DNA from: Candidatus Martarchaeota archaeon
GTDB lineage: Archaea > Micrarchaeota > Micrarchaeia > Micrarchaeales > Micrarchaeaceae
Direction of reading: 5' to 3'
DNA length: 49,240 nucleotides
NCBI GenBank assembly: GCA_023380795.1
Contig: JAMCSF010000024.1
Span: 1-49,240 of the forward strand
Position numbers and translations under genes: made by a program. Below the pieces are notes generated by a model. The model was not told where the DNA came from, did no database searches, and saw only the letters and a program-made list of their open reading frames with translations. This document shows, piece by piece, positions 6,497 to 39,613 of this stretch; the stretch's first letter is position 1; every line of letters begins with the position of its first letter.

Positions 6497-8455
<1,959 letters not shown>

Positions 8456-8460
8456 TACAG

Positions 8461-10941
8461 ATGGCAGAGAACAATAACGCTTACGACAGCAGAAACCTCG
8501 AGGTAACGATAGAGGGAGAAATGCAGAGCAGCTACATCGATTACGCGATGAGCGTCATAATAGGCAGGGCGCTCCCGGATGCCAGGGACGGGCTGAAGCC
8601 GGCCCAGAGAAGAATACTTTACGCAATGCACATGCTCAAGAACACGCACGAGCAGGCAACCAAGAAGAGCGCAAGGATTGTAGGAGAAGTAATAGGAAAG
8701 TACCATCCGCACGGAGATGCGGCGGTGTACGAGACGCTTGTGAGGATGGCGCAGGATTTTTCCATGAACCACATGCTTGTAGAGGGCCAGGGCAACATGG
8801 GCTCGATAGACGGAGACCCGGCTGCTGCACAGAGGTACACGGAAGTCAGGCTTAGAAGGCTTGCCGAAGAGATGCTTGAGGATCTTGACAAGAAAGCAGT
8901 GCCGTTCATACCTAATTTCGACAACACCGAGGAAGAGCCTTCGGTGCTGCCTTCGAAAGTACCGAACCTGATGATAAACGGCTCTTCGGGCATAGCGGTT
9001 GGCGTCGCTACGAACATACTGCCGCACAACCTGGGCGAAGTGTGCGACGCGATAATGGCCTACATAGCCAACCCGGAGATAACGCCGATTGAGCTTATGG
9101 GCAATATAAAGGGGCCTGATTTCCCTACTGGCGGCATAGCGTTCATGAGCCCGGAGCTCAAGAGGTCATACTTAACAGGGAGGGGCAGCGTCATACTTAG
9201 GGGCAAGGCAGAGCTCGAGGAGGGGCACAGGCTGAGGCAGTTCGTCATAAGTGAGATACCATACACGGTCAACAAGAGCACGCTGGTGGCCAAAATAGCA
9301 GAGCTCGGGAAGCAGAAGCTCATAGACGGAATGAGCACCATAAGGGACGAGAGCGACAAGAAGGGCATGAGAGTAGTCATAGAGCTCAAGCAGGATGCCA
9401 ACCCCGATGTAGTGCTCAACCAGCTTTACAAGCATACGCAGATGCAGATAACCCTTCCGGTAATGAACATTGCCGTAATGGGCAACAGGCTGCTTACGCT
9501 CAACATACGCGATTTCATAAAGGTGTTCGTGGAGCACAGGATGGAGGTCATACGCGCAAGGACAAGATACGATTTGGGAGTGGCAACCGACAGGCGCCAT
9601 ATAGTGGAGGGGCTTCTCATAGCACTCAAGGATATTGACGGAGTAATATCCATAATAAAGGCCAGCTCGGACACAAGAGAAGCAAGGGAAACGCTCATAG
9701 GCAACTACAGCATAAGCGAGAAGCAGGCCAACGCGATACTTGACATGAAGCTGGCAAGGCTCACAAGGCTGGAAACGACGTCGCTTGAGGCCGAAAAGGC
9801 AGAGCTGGACAAGAGCATAAGCTACTACAACAGCGTGCTGGAGAACGAATCCATGGTTTACGGGATAATAAAGGAGGAGACTCTTGCGCTCAAGGACAAA
9901 TACGGGATTCCACGAAAGACAGAAATAGTGGAAGACGAGGCGCTCAGCATAGAGAACGAGGACCTCATAAAAGACTATCCTTGCGTTGTCCTGATAACCA
10001 ACAAGGGCTACATGAAAAGGCTGGATATGGACGCATACAAGAGCCAGGCTAGGGGAGGCAAGGGAGTCATAACCATGGAGCTTAAAGACGAGGATTTCGT
10101 CAGGCAGAGCCTGCAGTGCATGTCAAAGGACTTCCTCCTTGCCATAACAAACAAGGGCAGGGCGTACTGGCTAAAGGCTTACGCTGTGCCGGAGGGCGGC
10201 AGGTACAGCTCCGGCAAGGCCGCGGCCAACATGTTTGCGCTCGGAACGGACGAAAGGATAGAAAAAATAGTTAACACCAGGGAGTTCGAAGGCAAGTACA
10301 TAAACTTCGTGACTAGCTCCGGAATAATAAAGAGGAGCATGGCCGCGCTGTATTCCAGGCCGCGCTCCACCGGAATAATAGCGCTGAGCATAAACGAAGG
10401 CGATTCCCTGGCAGAAGTATGCATATCAGACGGATCTTCCGACATCTTCGTTGCCACATCAAGCGGAAAGGCAATAAGGTTCAAAGAGACCGACGCAAGA
10501 TCGGTAGGCAGGAATGCTACCGGGGTCAGGGCGATAAGGCTCAGGAAGGGCGACCGCGTGGTAAACGCCGTAGCAGTGAAAGACGATTCGCTGGTTGCAA
10601 GCATAAGCGCAAAGGGATATGGCAAGATAACCGAGATAGGAAAATACAGGCTGCAACACAGGGGAGGCAAGGGAATAATAAACCTCAAGGTAAACGAGAA
10701 GACAGGCAACGTAGTAAAGGCGCTCTCATGCAGCATTGACGACAGCATAATACTGGTTAATTCCGCAGGGCTTTCGATACAGTTCGACGCTTCAGAGGTC
10801 AGGCAGAGCGGCAGGAGCGCCAGCGGAGTCAGATTAATGAGGCTGGAAGAGGGCACGGTAGTGGTTGACGCACAGGCAGTAAAGAAGCAGGACGAGACCG
10901 GCGACGCGCAAGCCAGCTCTAAAGAACAAAGCCCGAGCTAG
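8461..10941 (+). CDS. gyrA: DNA gyrase subunit A
   Basis: [42 protein letters not shown], catalytic QRYTE, six-bladed CTD repeats. Confidence 0.97.
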
Positions 10942-13425: not shown

Positions 13426-13448
13426 GCATCCACCTTTTAGTATGATTT

Positions 13449-13535
13449 GCGCCAGCCGGGATTTGAACCCGGGCATTCAGCTTTTTCCAGTCTTGTATGG
13501 GAAGCTGATATCCTACCAGGCTAGATGACTGGCGC
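13449..13535 (-). tRNA. tRNA-Gly(CCC) with short intron (about 15 nt) after position 37
   Basis: GCGCCAG/CTGGCGC acceptor, GGG-TTCAAAT-CCC T-arm, anticodon stem TCAGC/GCTGA flanking TTCCCA + intron + A. Confidence 0.85.
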
Positions 13536-23077: not shown

Positions 23078-26000
23078 ATGGACATATTGCTTGTGGGCAT
23101 AATAGCGTTCTTGACGCTTACGATACCTGGAGAGCTTTTCGCATTCGCCCTGCTAAGGAAGACAAAGCTCGGCCTCTTCGAGATCTCCGTAATAGGATTC
23201 ATATTCGGCCTCGTCGCTGTGCCGACTCTTACATGGCTCGAGTCCTATCTCATGAATTACATACATTTCTTCGCTTTCTCTCTTGCCCTTGTAGAAGTAA
23301 ACGCTTTAGTCCTGTCTATAGTCGGCATAATACTGTGCCTGTGGCAAGGTGTATTCAAGCTTAACTTATCAAACCCTGCATCAAGAAAGGGCGAGGCAAA
23401 GGCCGAGGAAGCAGAGCTCGACGTCATGAAACAGAGAGAAGCAATGGAGCTCTCGGAACTGAGGCATCAGCTCAGGTCCTTCGACGCGGCCAAATCAATA
23501 ATTGAAAAGCACATAGAAGAGGAGAAGGTGCTTTCGGAAAGGCATACCAGGGAGCTCAATGCCATAAACCTGTCGGAGCAGGATAAGCAACGCATAAACG
23601 CGCTCCAGTCCGACGAGAGAAACAGGCTCATAAAGGACCATGAGCAGGAAGAGCGCATACTGCTTAACAAGCTCTCCAGCAACGCAGCAAAGACGATAGC
23701 GGCAAAATCAGGCATGCAGATAAATAAGACTTATCTGGTTTTGGCCCTGCTGATGCTTCTTGTTTTCGGAACGCGCATGATGAGCATAGGCATAACTCCT
23801 AAGTTCTTCGAGTTTGATCCGTATTTCGACATGCTTTCCGCGGAGTCTATACTCACGTTCGGTTATCAGATTTATCTATCGCCAAGCGCATGGCCCATAG
23901 TTCCGCAGGGCACAAGCATGAGAATACAGCCTGTGGTTCCGTATCTGGAAGCTTATTGGTATGACCTTTCTAATGCCTTAGGGCCCAAGTACACAACGTT
24001 CTCCACCACGCTGATGAGCTATGTTGGAGGAATATACCCTCCGATAACCGCAGCACTGCTGGTTTTCTCAGTATTCATACTTCTTTATTACGAATACGGC
24101 AACAAGATAGCGCTTATAGGCGCAGCACTTGCATCCACGATGCCTGTGCTCTACACTACCTTCGTTTCCGGCGAACAGTTGCTGGAGCCGTGGGGTATAT
24201 TCACCCTTTTCTTCTTCTTCGCCGCGTATGCGCTGGCGATTAAGGACATGAAGAGCAAGCGCCTTGCCATACTTGCAGGGCTTGCATTCGTGACTACATT
24301 CCTCGGCGCGCACTATTATACAGTGGATGCAGGCGTGCTAACAATATACATAATAGTTCAGGGCATAGTCAACGTGCTTCAGAACAAGACAAGCAAGTAC
24401 TTCTACCAGATGAACGCTATAATCATAATAGTAATAGCCATATTCCTGGCAATGTACAACCCGTATCACGCAACCCTGTCAGGAAGGATACCTTCAATTC
24501 TTGGCATACCTATAACCGTGAGCGGACCCCTCTTTGCGCTAATATTTGTAGCGGTAATAGAATTTATGCCTGAAATGCTGGCAAAGCGCAATATCCTTTT
24601 CAAGGAAGTCAATATGAAGACGTACTTGGAATGGATAGCTCTAATAATAATAATCGCTTTTATTGCAATAGCCTTTACTCCTATTGGCAAGCCCATAACT
24701 GCTTATGTTAACCTCAGCAAGAGGTTCACAACGCCCTCTACGCCGCTGTTCATGACTGTCGAAGAATTCATACCTACAGGGGCAATGTATAACTTCGGCT
24801 CTTCCGGTTTTGGGTTCATAGGCGCCGACATTGCGGGCATACCTATTCTCATATGGGTTATAAGCATAGTGGCTATGGTTCTGATAGTACTGAGCATATT
24901 CTACAAAAAAAGCAACACGTCGATACTTTACCTTTCGATAGCAACTCCGCTGATGTTTGCGGGTTTCTCTGAAGTGAAATATCTGCCCCACTTCGGCACA
25001 GTGTACATAATGCTGTTCTGCATAATGCTCGGAGAGGGCATATATCTATTCAGGAACGGGTTCAAGCTCAAGTACGCCGAAGCTGCGATAATAAGCATAC
25101 TGGTGGCCCTCGGAGCAGTACTCATAATACTCGGCTCGTTCTACGGCATAATACTGGCTATAATATTGGGCGTAGCAGGAGGCTTCATCTACGAGATTGC
25201 CACAAATACAAGATATACTGACATGCTAGAGGCAAAGCCAGTAAAGAACGCGGAATTCTACATAACCGCGGCGATAAGCCTTGGAATATTCTTCATATCC
25301 CCTATATTTGCCCTGATATTCGTAATAGCGCTTATATTGATGCACAAGATGGACGAGTACAAGAAGCAGCTATGGTACGTCTTTGGCATATTCCTAATAA
25401 TATTTGTAGCAGGCACGCTGCTCAACGGCAGCCTTATGCTAGGAGAGATAAGCCCGGTGGTGTCTGCGCTAAGTTCTAGCTCGGTATATTCTTCAAATCC
25501 TGCAACTGCTTGCAGTACGATAGCCGCAACGTCAAGCATAGGGTACGACCTCTTCTGCAACGTTGTGCCTAACTATTGGCTTTCCGCGACAGCATGGATG
25601 CGTGCGAACGTTGGCCCCAACGCACCGCGCGTTCTGGCGTGGTGGGACTACGGCGACTGGATAAACTGGTTCGGGCACAGCAATGCTGTAATACGTGGAG
25701 ACAATTCCGAGCCCACTGAAGACTATGCAGTGGCAGCTAGCTATGTATTGGGCCCGAAGGACAACTACACACCAGCAGTGCTGCAGAACATGATGAATAC
25801 AAACCAGACGCGCTACATAGTGTTTGATCAGGGATTAATACAGAAATGGCAGGCTCTCGACTTCCTGGCATGCGTTCATGTAAACGAGACTTCAAGGGCG
25901 TACGCCATAGCCCAGGGAGCAGCACAGAGTCCTCCAGTGCCTTACTTGCTTGGCACCTCCCCATGCGAGGTAAGCCACGATCCGGAATATGCATTCCTGC

Positions 26001-26536
26001 CTCTTGCAGCTCTCGAGCCTCCGAGCTCAAGCACGTCGCAGAACATAAACTACTACTGCTCGATCTCTAACAGCACAAACCTTTACATAAAGGCGTACAC
26101 TGCGATAGGGGATGCGCTTTCAAACACTACCGTATGCGCCAGCACGTCACCAACGAAGAATGGCGACATACAGCTTTACAACAGCAACGGAACGAAGCTC
26201 AATGCAATGATACCACTTTCTTACGATTTGGGAGTCACGAGTATAGATGGCATAGAATTCGTGCAGTACCTGGTAGTATATACGCCAAACGGCCCGAACG
26301 ACACGATAACCAATGCCCCTTCGTCCTTCTACATATCAAACTTCTACAAGGGCTTCATGTTCGGCACGCTTCCAGGGTTCAAGCAGGTATACCCCAATAT
26401 TACAACCACTCCTGGCGAGAACCTAATTAACGGGACGTATCCGTTAAGGATAATGGAGATAGTCAACTACACCGGCGGGCTTCCTCCGGTGCCGCAGAAG
26501 CCGAGCTACGTTCACAACAATCTCACGATGCAGTGA
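23078..26536 (+). CDS. aglB: oligosaccharyltransferase STT3/AglB with extra N-terminal membrane and coiled-coil region
   Basis: WWDYGDW catalytic-family motif (25640-25660) and many TM segments; about 210 N-terminal residues precede the STT3-like start. Confidence 0.9.
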   Translation: MDILLVGIIAFLTLTIPGELFAFALLRKTKLGLFEISVIGFIFGLVAVPTLTWLESYLMNYIHFFAFSLALVEVNALVLSIVGIILCLWQGVFKLNLSNPASRKGEAKAEEAELDVMKQREAMELSELRHQLRSFDAAKSIIEKHIEEEKVLSERHTRELNAINLSEQDKQRINALQSDERNRLIKDHEQEERILLNKLSSNAAKTIAAKSGMQINKTYLVLALLMLLVFGTRMMSIGITPKFFEFDPYFDMLSAESILTFGYQIYLSPSAWPIVPQGTSMRIQPVVPYLEAYWYDLSNALGPKYTTFSTTLMSYVGGIYPPITAALLVFSVFILLYYEYGNKIALIGAALASTMPVLYTTFVSGEQLLEPWGIFTLFFFFAAYALAIKDMKSKRLAILAGLAFVTTFLGAHYYTVDAGVLTIYIIVQGIVNVLQNKTSKYFYQMNAIIIIVIAIFLAMYNPYHATLSGRIPSILGIPITVSGPLFALIFVAVIEFMPEMLAKRNILFKEVNMKTYLEWIALIIIIAFIAIAFTPIGKPITAYVNLSKRFTTPSTPLFMTVEEFIPTGAMYNFGSSGFGFIGADIAGIPILIWVISIVAMVLIVLSIFYKKSNTSILYLSIATPLMFAGFSEVKYLPHFGTVYIMLFCIMLGEGIYLFRNGFKLKYAEAAIISILVALGAVLIILGSFYGIILAIILGVAGGFIYEIATNTRYTDMLEAKPVKNAEFYITAAISLGIFFISPIFALIFVIALILMHKMDEYKKQLWYVFGIFLIIFVAGTLLNGSLMLGEISPVVSALSSSSVYSSNPATACSTIAATSSIGYDLFCNVVPNYWLSATAWMRANVGPNAPRVLAWWDYGDWINWFGHSNAVIRGDNSEPTEDYAVAASYVLGPKDNYTPAVLQNMMNTNQTRYIVFDQGLIQKWQALDFLACVHVNETSRAYAIAQGAAQSPPVPYLLGTSPCEVSHDPEYAFLPLAALEPPSSSTSQNINYYCSISNSTNLYIKAYTAIGDALSNTTVCASTSPTKNGDIQLYNSNGTKLNAMIPLSYDLGVTSIDGIEFVQYLVVYTPNGPNDTITNAPSSFYISNFYKGFMFGTLPGFKQVYPNITTTPGENLINGTYPLRIMEIVNYTGGLPPVPQKPSYVHNNLTMQ

Positions 26537-28538: not shown

Positions 28539-28883
28539 ATGGCTAAAAGGCACAGTAACAATATAACACCGGAAGTTGCAGTCGAACGCCTCATAAACTG
28601 CTTTGAAACGGCCAACGGGGAAATAAATAAGGCATTGGGGCAGGAAATCCCCAAAAAGGAGCTAAACGCCAGGGTCAAGCTCTTCGTCGGCGACGCTTTC
28701 AGAAAGTGCAATGTCGACATAAAGAATCCAACAAAGGAAGGCCTGAGAGAAGCAATGGGCCTATGCAAAATAAATACTGAGAAGATGCTGGGTCCAAAAG
28801 CAGAACCAATAATAAGGAAGCATTATGCAGAAATGAGTGAAATAATAGAAAAGTTGCCAGATAACGGTGATAAAAATGACTAA
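28539..28883 (+). CDS. hypothetical helical protein
   Basis: ORF with plausible start after an AT-rich promoter; overlaps the next gene. Confidence 0.6.
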   Translation: MAKRHSNNITPEVAVERLINCFETANGEINKALGQEIPKKELNARVKLFVGDAFRKCNVDIKNPTKEGLREAMGLCKINTEKMLGPKAEPIIRKHYAEMSEIIEKLPDNGDKND

Positions 28884-29196
28884 AATATTGTCAATAATAT
28901 CGAGCAAGGAAAAGGAAAAGATAAGCCTGGGTATAAACTTCAGCGCCAGGCAGAAGCAGGCAGGACATGACGTGAGGGTCCTTTTCTTCGGCCAGAGCGA
29001 GGTAACCGTGGCTAACGACGAGGAATTGTCGAAGCTCATAGGGGACTCATTCAGTGGGGAAAAGCCGTCAGCATGCATATTCGTGGCGCAGGGTGCCAAG
29101 GTGGAAGAAAAGCTCGGCGAGAAGGTAAACCTTGTAAAAGCGGGGGAATACATAACGAAGAGCATAGACGAGGGATACACGCCAATAAGCTTCTGA
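28876..29196 (+). CDS. DsrE/DsrF-like small protein
   Basis: LSIISSKEKEKISLGINFSARQKQAGHDVRVLFFGQSE resembles the DsrE fold. Confidence 0.5.
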   Translation: MTKILSIISSKEKEKISLGINFSARQKQAGHDVRVLFFGQSEVTVANDEELSKLIGDSFSGEKPSACIFVAQGAKVEEKLGEKVNLVKAGEYITKSIDEGYTPISF

Positions 29197-29219: not shown

Positions 29220-29389
29220 GATCTCTTCCATCCCAATTTTTATGCTAGAAGGCCCTCATGCTCTAAACTGTATCAATGTGAACGAAACTATAAAAACAAT
29301 CCGCAAAAATCCCAAACCCGAAAACTTTTTATAGCGCAATAAACCAAGCTATTTAAATCATCCATCAAAATCTAAATCGGGGTTATGTG

Positions 29390-30043
29390 ATGGGTGAAAT
29401 TACAGCCGGCTTGAACGAGAAGTTTTCGCAATACACCCTCAAGTGGAGGGGAGGAAAGCTAACAACTACGCAATATGCACTTTTTGCGATACAGATGGCA
29501 GTTGTAATACTGCTTTCGTGGCTCGGAGCCATAGCCACTCCCGTAGTTGGCCCTGGCATCGGGTTCCTTTACTGGGCATATCCTTTCTTTGTAGTTTTTA
29601 CTCTGTGGTGGGGAGTATGGGGAATACTGGGGGCATGGATTGGCGCCTTCGTGGGGTCTGGTCTTTTGACGGGGCTGCCAGTTCTTCCTGCGCTGGGATT
29701 CAGCATAGGCGACCTAATTCCCGCACTGCTGATATTCCTTCTTTACAGGGGATACCTTAGAAAGCACGGCATAGACCCATTGGGCAGGGACATAATGAAA
29801 AGCAAGAAATCCGCGGCATGGTTCGTTATATGGGTAATGGGCATTACTAATATAATCGGGGGCTTATGGGGCGTATGGATCCTTGTGCTTCTCGGTTTCG
29901 TTCCAGCCAGCGCGTATTTGCTGGGTGCCGGGCTGTGGATACTGGGCGATGCGATAGTGCTACTAATAGCCCCATTCCTGGCCAGATACGTTACTCCTGT
30001 TGTGGAGCGCTTCGGGCTGGTGAATACTGGTTGGGTGTCGTAA
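29390..30043 (+). CDS. ECF transporter substrate-binding (S) component-like membrane protein
   Basis: Small 5-6 TM protein directly upstream of EcfT- and EcfA-like genes. Confidence 0.6.
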   Translation: MGEITAGLNEKFSQYTLKWRGGKLTTTQYALFAIQMAVVILLSWLGAIATPVVGPGIGFLYWAYPFFVVFTLWWGVWGILGAWIGAFVGSGLLTGLPVLPALGFSIGDLIPALLIFLLYRGYLRKHGIDPLGRDIMKSKKSAAWFVIWVMGITNIIGGLWGVWILVLLGFVPASAYLLGAGLWILGDAIVLLIAPFLARYVTPVVERFGLVNTGWVS

Positions 30044-30127: not shown

Positions 30128-30868
30128 ATGAATCCGATAGTCAAGTTCCTACTGCTCATACTTCTTTCAGTAGGGGTGGTTATATCGATAATACGTCCGG
30201 TCCCTGACCTTTCGTACAATCTGCTTGTACTTGCGTTCGCCGTAGGCTTTCTAGTCGAGAGTGGTACTATAAAATATCTGGTGAAGAGCTATCTCGCGCT
30301 TCTAGTAGTTGCGCTTTTCGTCATGATGACTTGGTGGATAGTATTCAATCAGATAGGCACTAATCCAATCTTTAGCATAACTGTGCTAGGCGCAACGCTC
30401 AGGGTAACGTACCTATCCATATACGTGGGCATAGGCAAAATATCCGGATATGCGTCTATGGCTTTCATGACGCTGCTCACGATAATGAGCACCAGGGACG
30501 CAGACATAATATCAGCATTGAAAAGGCTCAGGGTACCGTTCAAGGCGGTGTTCTTCGCATCGCTGATAGCAAGGAGCCTTAACATAATGTCCGACGATCT
30601 TGATTCGATAAGGCAGGCCCAGTTCGCCAGGGGAGCTGGAGGCGCGTCAACAAACATACTAAAGAAGGTCACCTCATTCGTAATGCTTTCGATACCATTG
30701 ACTACATCCATGATAAAGCGTTCCGTAGACATGGGCTTCGCGCTTGAATCCAGGGGATTCTCCAAGTCCAAGGGGCTGTCAGACTTTATCTCAGAAAAGA
30801 GGTTCAAGGCCAGCGATGCGATTATAATGGCTTTCGGCGCCTTCATGCTGGCCCTTCCATTTATCTGA
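30128..30868 (+). CDS. ecfT: ECF transporter T component (EcfT/CbiQ-like)
   Basis: TM protein with coupling-helix-like LDSIRQAQFARGA and SVDMGFALESRGF. Confidence 0.8.
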   Translation: MNPIVKFLLLILLSVGVVISIIRPVPDLSYNLLVLAFAVGFLVESGTIKYLVKSYLALLVVALFVMMTWWIVFNQIGTNPIFSITVLGATLRVTYLSIYVGIGKISGYASMAFMTLLTIMSTRDADIISALKRLRVPFKAVFFASLIARSLNIMSDDLDSIRQAQFARGAGGASTNILKKVTSFVMLSIPLTTSMIKRSVDMGFALESRGFSKSKGLSDFISEKRFKASDAIIMAFGAFMLALPFI

Positions 30869-30880
30869 GCGGGTGCAATC

Positions 30881-33439
30881 ATGGATTCGATAACAATAAG
30901 CGATTTTTATTGGAGATATCCCAATTTTACCGGAATAAAGAGCGATTATGCCCTGAAGGGAATTAGCCTAAGCGTCAGAGAGGGCGAATTTCTCGGCATT
31001 ACAGGGCCGAGCGGTTCAGGCAAGACAACGCTCTGCTATGCAATAGCAGGCCTGATACCCCATCAGCTAAAGCTGCCTCTCAATTTTCAGGATGGGATAA
31101 AAGGAGAGATAAATGTCCTTGGTAAAACAGTCACCAAAGCAGAAATAATAAACGGGGAGCTCAAGCTTTCAGGCACAGGCATAACTGCTCCAGAGGTTGG
31201 TCTCGTAATGCAGGATCCTGAAAGCCAGTTCCTCAGCATGAGCGTCATGAACGAGGTCTCTTTGGGGCTGCAGCTCATGGGCCTAGAAAAGGGGGAAATG
31301 CGCGAACGCATAAAGGGCGCCCTTGAGCTCGTTGGCCTGGGCGAGCTTTATGACTATGCCGAAAAGATTCACCCTTCTGAGCTGTCCGGAGGCCAGAAGC
31401 AGCGTCTCGTAATAGCAAGCTTCCTGGCCATGAAACCCAAGATCCTGATACTAGACGAACCAACGTCAGACCTAGACCCTAAGGGGAAAATGGAAGTAAT
31501 AGAGACCATTGCAAAGATAAAGAAAGAATCTGGAATGACAATAATTCTTGTGGAGCACAATCCTGACGTGATGCTAAAGTTCGCCGACAGACTAGCCCTT
31601 TTGTACGATGGTTCAATAGTCAAAACAGGCAGGCCAGAAGAAATATATTCGAACAAGGAGCTTATATCCAAATACAACATATACGCGCCGGAGGTATCTG
31701 AACTTTCCGATTATTTTTCCGTTGACGAAAGCCCAAAGCTGGGCATACCAAAAACGGGATTCAAGATAGAGCGGAAAAGGCCAACAATATCAAATCCGAT
31801 AATAACGCTAAATGAGGTATCATTCTCGTATGACGACGGAACCAAGGCTCTTGAGAACATAAATCTTGAAATAGAAAAAGGTTCTCTCGTGGCACTGGTC
31901 GGGCAGAATGGCTCAGGGAAAAGCACGCTTTCAAAAATTATTTCTGGGATACTCGCGCCTGGTTCCGGTACGGCAAATGTTGCAGGGCTAAATCCGCGCT
32001 CAAAGAGAGACAGGCTCAAGCTGCCCATGCATGTCAGCTACGTTTTTCAGAATCCAGACCACCAAATATTTACCAGGAGCGTCACTTCTGAAGTAAACTA
32101 TTCGCTGAAGAATGCCGGCATAATCGGAAAGGAAGCTGACGAAAAGGTTGACGAAATACTCAAGCGCGTAGGCCTTTCGGAAAAGGCCAACGAAGATCCC
32201 GTATTCCTTGGAAGGGGTCAGAAGCGCAGGCTTGCGGTGGCAAGCAGCATAGTAATAAAGCCAGAAGTGCTCATAGTCGACGAACCGACCACAGGCCAGG
32301 ACTATAAAATGGCAATGGAAATAATGGAGATAATAAAAAGCCTGAACGAGGATGGCGTTACTGTTATTCTTATAACCCATGACATGAGGCTAGTTGCCGA
32401 ATACTGCCGAAGGGCTATAGTAATGAGCAAGGGCTCAATTATATTCGACGGTACTCCCGAAAACCTTTTCATGGACGAGAAAGTGTTGCGCCTTTCGTCG
32501 CTGTCAGAGCCGCAATCCGTAAGGCTGTCAAAGGGCATGATGAATGCTGGTCTGCTTGATGAACCGCTGATAAGCGCGAGAGAATGGCTTGAGTTCTTTA
32601 ATTTCCTGAAATCTAAAACTAAGATAGTCTTCAAATCTATCGCCGATATCGAAGCAAGCGCTGCGAAGATATCTGCTGCATTGAAGGATGCGGGCACACC
32701 GAAGGGAATGATATACATAGAGAGAGGCGGTATGGTGTTAGCCTCTGCACTTTGCTCAAAGCTTGGAAATCCAAAAACCTACGGCATATCCGCAAGCCAT
32801 TATAATGACATAGGGACACCAACAAAGGAGGTATTCGTGCGAGGAATGGATACGCTCAAAATCCCGAGCGGCGAAGGGTACGTCTTAGTGGTAGACGAGC
32901 TGGTGGATACAGGGAAAACGCTGGCAAGCATAATGACGCGCCTGCGCGCCGAATTTCCCAAAGAGAGGTTCGTAACATGCACGATGCTTGCAAAGCCACG
33001 CTCAGCGGCAAAGCCAGACATATGTGCAGAGGAGGTTTCTGATGACACGTGGGTGGTATTCGATTATGAAAGAAACGAGGCTCTCTCGGAATTTGAAAAG
33101 GCCAACCCTACAATGCTCCCTGAGCTCCGCAAGCATTTTGCCTCTTATCCGGAGGGCAAATATTCAAGCATTTACAAGAAAATAGATGAATTCTGCTCTG
33201 GCATAAGCAAAAAGCCTACAGCCATAGCATACGAGAACCCCCAGGCGCTAGTACAGGCGAGGCTGCTATCCGACAGACTTGGAGTGAAGCGCCTTCTTCC
33301 AGTAGCTGATGCTGCAACCGCATTTGCCAAGCTCAAAGACAAAGATATAATAGTAGTCGGATCCACAAAAGCTGCAGTAGAAATGATAAGTGCAGCAATA
33401 GGGCTCAAGGATCTGCTTGCATTAGTGGCAAAAGCCTAA
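30881..33439 (+). CDS. fused ECF ATPase (EcfA-EcfA') with C-terminal phosphoribosyltransferase-like domain
   Basis: Two Walker A (GPSGSGKTT, GQNGSGKST), two Walker B (LILDEPTSDLDP, LIVDEPTTGQD), signatures LSGGQ and LGRGQ; then PRPP-loop-like VLVVDELVDTGKTLAS near residue 667. Confidence 0.88.
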   Translation: MDSITISDFYWRYPNFTGIKSDYALKGISLSVREGEFLGITGPSGSGKTTLCYAIAGLIPHQLKLPLNFQDGIKGEINVLGKTVTKAEIINGELKLSGTGITAPEVGLVMQDPESQFLSMSVMNEVSLGLQLMGLEKGEMRERIKGALELVGLGELYDYAEKIHPSELSGGQKQRLVIASFLAMKPKILILDEPTSDLDPKGKMEVIETIAKIKKESGMTIILVEHNPDVMLKFADRLALLYDGSIVKTGRPEEIYSNKELISKYNIYAPEVSELSDYFSVDESPKLGIPKTGFKIERKRPTISNPIITLNEVSFSYDDGTKALENINLEIEKGSLVALVGQNGSGKSTLSKIISGILAPGSGTANVAGLNPRSKRDRLKLPMHVSYVFQNPDHQIFTRSVTSEVNYSLKNAGIIGKEADEKVDEILKRVGLSEKANEDPVFLGRGQKRRLAVASSIVIKPEVLIVDEPTTGQDYKMAMEIMEIIKSLNEDGVTVILITHDMRLVAEYCRRAIVMSKGSIIFDGTPENLFMDEKVLRLSSLSEPQSVRLSKGMMNAGLLDEPLISAREWLEFFNFLKSKTKIVFKSIADIEASAAKISAALKDAGTPKGMIYIERGGMVLASALCSKLGNPKTYGISASHYNDIGTPTKEVFVRGMDTLKIPSGEGYVLVVDELVDTGKTLASIMTRLRAEFPKERFVTCTMLAKPRSAAKPDICAEEVSDDTWVVFDYERNEALSEFEKANPTMLPELRKHFASYPEGKYSSIYKKIDEFCSGISKKPTAIAYENPQALVQARLLSDRLGVKRLLPVADAATAFAKLKDKDIIVVGSTKAAVEMISAAIGLKDLLALVAKA

Positions 33440-39479: not shown

Positions 39480-39613
39480 CGCCAGGGTAGGGATTTGAAC
39501 CCTAAAGCCCGTGAGGGCACCGGTTTACCTGTCGCGCCTTTTTGCATCACCAATCAGCTCTTGACGTTTTGAAAACTCAAGACCGGCGCGTTACCAGATT
39601 CTGCCACCCTGGC
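39480..39613 (-). tRNA. tRNA-Ser(UGA) with intron of about 50 nt after position 37
   Basis: GCCAGGG/CCCTGGC acceptor, discriminator G, CCGGT/ACCGG anticodon stem, GCCC-TCAC-GGGC variable arm, AGGG-TTCAAAT-CCCT T-arm; intron TCAAG can pair with CTTGA. Confidence 0.8.

Follow-up and report, generated by a model that had tools for sequence, protein, structure and literature searches.

Dedicated importers of the group I ECF class (CbiMNQO, BioMNY and the EcfSTAA' systems) are encoded in the order EcfS-EcfT-EcfA, with a CbiQ-type T component and ATPases of the TIGR04520/TIGR04521 families. The ABC importers MetNI, OpuA and MalK possess C-terminal regulatory domains, and uptake with metabolic trapping is typified by PnuC acting with NadR/nicotinamide riboside kinase and by the vectorial acylation of FadL/FadD. 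Membrane phosphoribosyltransferases (PRTases) were reportedly proposed in the 1970s to take up purines by group translocation, and the mechanical coupling of purine uptake to nucleotide formation is an old, unsettled proposal. Here we analyzed a stretch of 49,240 nucleotides (hereinafter the window) from a Micrarchaeota MAG of 658 kb and 71.5% completeness (Candidatus Martarchaeota archaeon, GenBank: GCA_023380795.1, contig JAMCSF010000024.1). It contains an operon with the gene order, T component and ATPase families of the group I ECF systems; unlike in those, however, the two ATPases form one chain that also includes a PRTase, the S component falls outside all curated families, and the cargo is probably a purine. 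In the open-access literature searched, we found neither an ECF-PRTase fusion nor a purine ECF transporter described.

The fusion gene and its operon

The gene at the center of this operon (30881..33439, forward strand) has a stop-free frame of 852 aa with the architecture EcfA-EcfA'-PRTase-pseudoPRTase, which is retained in the genus and in Thermoplasmata. The preliminary description of this DNA had read the frame as two ECF ATPases followed by a purine-PRTase-like region, situated behind EcfT- and EcfS-like genes, and domain searches bore out each element. Pfam searches recovered PF00005 twice, corresponding to two ABC/ECF ATPase domains, and both TIGR04520 and TIGR04521 exceeded their cut-offs. 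The first ATPase domain (about residues 1–285; 30881..31735, forward strand) displays the Walker A (42–50), Q-loop (110–116), LSGGQ signature (168–175), Walker B (189–199) and H-loop (224–227) motifs, and the second (about residues 305–559; 31793..32557, forward strand) shows a Walker A (341–349), a signature of the form LGRGQ (443–450), a Walker B (464–474) and an H-loop (498–501). The Walker A/B, signature, Q- and H-loop motifs are thus intact in this ATPase pair, as is every ATPase motif in the transporter-type branches, judged from the 23 fusions whose sequence spans domain 1 (24 rows, of which one is truncated).

The ATPases are followed by a type I PRTase domain of the XGPRT/HGXPRT type (about residues 583–745; 32627..33115, forward strand), which matches Pribosyltran (PF00156) at residues 589–732 (E 5.3e-13; 49 bits against a cut-off of 26.3) and whose closest PDB sequences are E. 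coli XGPRT and then other 6-oxopurine PRTases. An AlphaFold2 model of residues 556–852, built from an alignment of 35 sequences (mean pLDDT 86.5), adopts the type I PRTase fold in this C-terminal part, with its PRPP-binding motifs intact, just as the preliminary description had anticipated. Foldseek returned Sulfolobus HGXPRT as the top PDB match (4zfn_A, E 9.6e-12), the other leading matches being the P. horikoshii purine PRTase 1vdm and the XGPRTs of H. pylori and E. coli, with 1a97 among them. The active site comprises a PPi loop (RGG, 615–617), a PRPP loop (VLVVDELVDTGKT, 668–680) and the base-site residues K705 and W724, with which the Lys and Trp of XGPRT align. In the 35 aligned relatives R615-G616-G617, Y641, D672, D676, G678-K679-T680, K705, D713 and W724 are invariant; in the branch of the window, E takes the place of D at the second acidic position of the PRPP loop, retaining acidity. 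The fused domain shares its fold, RGG PPi loop and PRPP loop with E. coli Gpt, Sulfolobus GpT-2 (4zfn) and P. horikoshii 1vdm, and its base-site Lys and Trp with Gpt and archaeal HGXPRT, at about 20–30% identity; unlike them, it is covalently bound to an ABC ATPase and has a decayed second copy behind it. Purifying selection acts on the PRTase part, with a dN/dS of about 0.06–0.1 between close relatives, compared with 0.02–0.05 for the ATPases. By these conserved residues, the first PRTase domain is very probably an enzyme.

The last 80 or so residues had earlier been left as unassigned. In fact, profile comparison identifies the end of the protein (residues 746–852; 33116..33436, forward strand), including these last ~80–100 residues, as a second PRTase domain, degenerate but from the same family: the C-termini, compared as a profile, matched a PRTase profile from which the branch of the window had been excluded (hhalign 97.3%, E 2.4e-11), and an HMM recovered 8/8 of the C-termini tested as members of the PRTase family. 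The RGG and PRPP-loop motifs are gone from this tail, while the ARLLSDxLGVK helix is kept. Type I PRTases normally work as dimers. Since there would be one such chain per ECF complex, we propose an additional dimer partner, which may be the pseudo-PRTase tail or, in the sister genus, a free PRTase; in the fusion of the window the tail is probably a structural or dimerization partner. The sister genus has a second, intact, free-standing PRTase gene directly behind the fusion (L130:6612-7211, L131:3099-3701, L015:860-1414), with a 4-base overlap between the two in L130 and L131. Members of this PRTase family in other Micrarchaeota are joined to an unrelated N-terminal domain of ~260 aa without a Pfam match, which by eye resembles a nucleotidyltransferase, and are again followed by a degenerate second PRTase (L014:646-2385, L016:682-2430, L017:1279-2991).

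Upstream of the fusion lie genes for an EcfT of the CbiQ type, the transmembrane coupling component (246 aa; 30128..30868, forward strand; PF02361, E 1.1e-20), and for an EcfS-like substrate-binding component (218 aa; 29387..30043, forward strand), which starts at GTG 29387 or ATG 29390. The latter showed no significant Pfam match beyond a weak one to MASE1, and NCBIfam naming gave nothing useful. Its AlphaFold model (17 sequences; pLDDT 86.9) has the S components BioY, FolT, ThiT and RibU as its first PDB matches, with weak E-values (0.004–1) and TM scores (by target length) of 0.5–0.7. The assignment as EcfS draws on these weak fold matches and on identity to the Thermotogota EcfS discussed below, and its place in the operon is conserved among the loci compared. 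Distant members of the EcfS family (38–46% identity) are present in multiple copies in a single genome, so purine binding need not extend to the whole family. The neighbor of the fusion on the opposite strand does encode a thymidine kinase (PF00265), as earlier noted; nevertheless, it is only a genus-level neighbor, absent beside the Thermoplasmata fusions and uninformative on the substrate, and we dropped it as a functional partner. Further features of the window include two small genes (28539-29196; 114 and 109 aa) without a Pfam match, which hold their position upstream of the ECF operon across the genus; a 1152-aa ORF without a Pfam match (23078-26536); adjoining DNA gyrase B and A genes (6530-10941) in this Micrarchaeota genome; and two tRNAs found by Rfam and missed by ARAGORN (13448-13535 and 39480-39613, both on the reverse strand), possibly intron-bearing archaeal tRNAs.

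Recurrence and evolution of the fusion

The full fusion is present in 8/8 genomes of the genus, including the single-contig 0.99-Mb genome G002, and a sister genus adds 3 more genomes. Beyond these, a full-length ATPase-PRTase frame was recovered in 17 of 350 sampled Thermoplasmata genomes, in one of them (G420) on a contig of 1.96 Mb. In six of the Thermoplasmata loci viewed in context, EcfS and EcfT precede or accompany the fusion, and the EcfS is 73–78% identical to that of the window. A frameshift, a chimeric assembly or a misbinned contig might be suspected, given that these are MAG data and that a related contig resembles contamination from the sister genus. However, the frame has no in-frame stop, composition is similar on either side of the fusion junction, and the fusion recurs throughout the genus and on the single contigs of G002 and G420; an artefact, whose chance we put at next to nothing, is thereby refuted, and the absence from relatives or assembly join that would have undone the preliminary description was not what we found. 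The contig in question (L132, G206:C73), from an order-level relative, matches the sister genus gene for gene and is probably a binning contaminant.

In a tree of the ATPases, a single branch with support of 100/100 unites the fusions with the closest unfused sequences. A single origin of the fusion was considered and rejected: the tree needs two changes, since the unfused Thermotogota sequences nest beside the fused sister genus. By this placement, either the PRTase would have been lost after transfer to bacteria (Thermotogota) or the fusion would have arisen twice. Three Thermoplasmata sequences lie inside the branch of the genus of the window (support 92/79 to 100/99), which points to gene transfer between its lineage and Thermoplasmata; lineages of Micrarchaeota are known to live as symbionts of Thermoplasmata hosts (PMC12892359, PMC5498576).

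Ten Thermoplasmata fusions (L141–L150, in genomes G531, G635, G596, G599, G523, G608, G650, G534, G614 and G557) yielded no EcfS in profile searches, a provisional result for genomes with no known positive. The three of these seen in context have neither EcfS nor EcfT adjoining, and CbiQ was not found in 4/5 of the orphan-fusion genomes tested. In precisely these ten, the H-loop of ATPase 1 is gone (VEQD, VEKD or SSHE in place of VEH) and its signature is altered, with the PRTase intact. Thus, the state of the ATPase motifs tracks the presence of transport partners: the transporter-type branches keep all motifs and the EcfS-less fusions do not. The orphans are possibly ABC-PRTase proteins that have ceased to be transporters, and, as they keep the PRTase without a detectable EcfS, the fused PRTase need not act solely with the EcfS transporter.

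Cargo and purine physiology

Operons of Thermotogota supplied a marker of the substrate. They encode an orthologous EcfS, 72–73% identical to that of the window, with an unfused ATPase, and this EcfS occurs in only 3/104 Thermotogota genomes. In all three, an RF00167 purine riboswitch lies just upstream of the EcfS gene (E <= 3e-12; 84.6 and 81.3 bits in Athalassotoga saccharophila and MAG L026, respectively, and 78.9 bits in the third Thermotogota genome). A C at the specificity position of a purine riboswitch denotes the guanine class (PMC11477304), and both aptamers that were aligned have a C there (GACUAC). In Athalassotoga (L027), the aptamer is followed by a terminator hairpin with a U tail (z -4.35) and by a competing anti-terminator (z -6.11), a layout that fits a switch predicted to silence the operon at high guanine. 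RNA family searches detected no purine riboswitch in the archaeal loci searched, the window included; the substrate is carried over to the fusion system by the 72–73% identity of EcfS from orthologues that lack the fusion. The guanine-class signal of the bacteria and the guanine/hypoxanthine/xanthine-type PRTase of the archaea are two independent marks of the same predicted cargo. As in the guanine-riboswitch operons with xpt, pbuX or pbuG, an RF00167 element with C would here control purine uptake genes; unlike in those operons, the Thermotogota riboswitch precedes an ECF transporter, an arrangement for which we found no description in the open-access literature searched.

The purine metabolism of the genus is compatible with such a cargo. 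The only PF00156 proteins above cut-off are the fusion, APRT and PRPP synthetase-like proteins (matches other than the fusion being placed by length and sequence start), which leaves no PurF among them and the fusion as the only detected 6-oxopurine PRTase. GMP synthase is found in 0/8 genomes of the genus, whereas 14/14 control genomes were positive, and the IMPDH search yielded just weak matches of 30–35 residues, which we judged not to be IMPDH. Accordingly, not one genome of the genus carries PurF, GMP synthase or a convincing IMPDH. These absences, assessed family by family for PurF, GMP synthase and IMPDH, are provisional at genome completeness values of 54–95% (G002 about 92%, the genome of the window about 72%). 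With these three undetected, GMP in the genus would have to derive from guanine, or from nucleosides or nucleotides, and host nucleotides or nucleosides could enter by other import routes. Most Micrarchaeota have been described as depending on a host and as lacking parts of nucleotide synthesis (PMC12892359). The riboswitches of the unfused orthologues and these pathway gaps lend support to the nucleobase substrate that the preliminary description had surmised.

Proposed coupling of uptake to nucleotide formation

Taken together, we favor, at a probability of roughly 0.74, an ECF importer of group I dedicated to guanine or a closely related 6-oxopurine, in which the motor chain carries the trapping enzyme. 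EcfS would capture the base outside, EcfT would couple EcfS to the single-chain EcfA-EcfA' ATPase, and the C-terminal XGPRT/HGXPRT-type PRTase of the same chain, at the cytoplasmic face, would convert the arriving base and PRPP to GMP (or IMP/XMP) and PPi. Conversion to the nucleotide would trap the base inside the cell and could supply guanine nucleotides to a host-dependent archaeon without detectable PurF, GMP synthase or IMPDH. From sequence we infer that the system transports, which base it takes up, that the PRTase is active and that its closeness to the motor is of benefit.

The most ambitious form of this proposal is true vectorial phosphoribosylation, in which the base released by EcfS would pass straight into the PRTase and never be free in the cytoplasm: an obligately coupled group translocation driven by ATP plus PRPP, with the pseudo-PRTase, or the free PRTase of the sister genus, completing the dimer. 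We regard this as unlikely; the sequence fits direct hand-off and nearby trapping alike, the hand-off being conjecture on our part. At the other end, the fusion might simply co-localize a purine importer and a salvage enzyme at a fixed ratio, the base being freed into the cytoplasm with no kinetic advantage. The second, free-standing PRTase gene right behind the sister-genus fusion is in keeping with this, as is the same transporter with an unfused ATPase in Thermotogota, by which fusion is not obligatory for transport; yet the fusion has long been kept in two phyla, and in no member of the genus has the PRTase been freed. Such co-localization, which differs from the favored trapping importer only in degree, is possible but doubtful.

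A greater departure would be a PRTase that acts mainly as a regulatory sensor, binding PRPP, GMP or an alarmone and gating the ATPase (trans-inhibition) with little catalysis, comparable to the C-terminal domain of MetN or the CBS domains of OpuA. The C-terminus of an ABC ATPase is indeed the position of known regulatory domains, and the decayed second PRTase alongside shows that non-catalytic PRTase folds are retained here. Nevertheless, the first PRTase shows no variation between lineages at its catalytic and base-site positions, not all of which a pure sensor would need to keep, and this is the sole 6-oxopurine PRTase detected in genomes without GMP synthesis, making a mere sensor improbable. 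The cargo could also be something other than a purine base, such as a vitamin, cobalt or a nucleoside, with the PRTase unrelated to it. Vitamins and metals are the usual ECF cargo, and the neighbors of the unfused operons also suggested it: a B12-dependent methionine synthase module adjoins the Thermotogota operon on the opposite strand, and an amidohydrolase is found in Chloroflexi (L028). Against this, the purine riboswitches in 3/3 Thermotogota genomes, of the guanine class where read, match the base specificity of the fused enzyme, and RNA family searches upstream of the Thermotogota EcfS loci detected no cobalamin, SAM or TPP riboswitch. These outweigh the neighborhood evidence; we rejected the vitamin or metal cargo and hold a non-purine cargo of any kind to be very improbable.

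If the trapping importer is real, purine nucleobases would join the list of ECF cargo and an ABC motor would be linked to a salvage enzyme on a single polypeptide, with a suggested source of guanine for an archaeon that depends on its host and whose GMP synthesis is incomplete. EcfS sequences at about 70% or more identity would be likely purine binders, a prediction now testable, and the fusion would be well suited to examining whether the uptake of a nucleobase can be mechanically coupled to nucleotide formation.

As in MetNI, OpuA and MalK, the additional domain sits at the C-terminus of the ATPase; in those importers, however, it is a ligand-sensing domain, whereas in the fusion it is a probable enzyme whose active site is complete. 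With PnuC, FadL/FadD and the membrane-PRTase proposal, the system suggested here would share an uptake drawn onward by modifying the substrate at the membrane. It differs from them in that the predicted enzyme and the ATP-driven motor reside on a single polypeptide.
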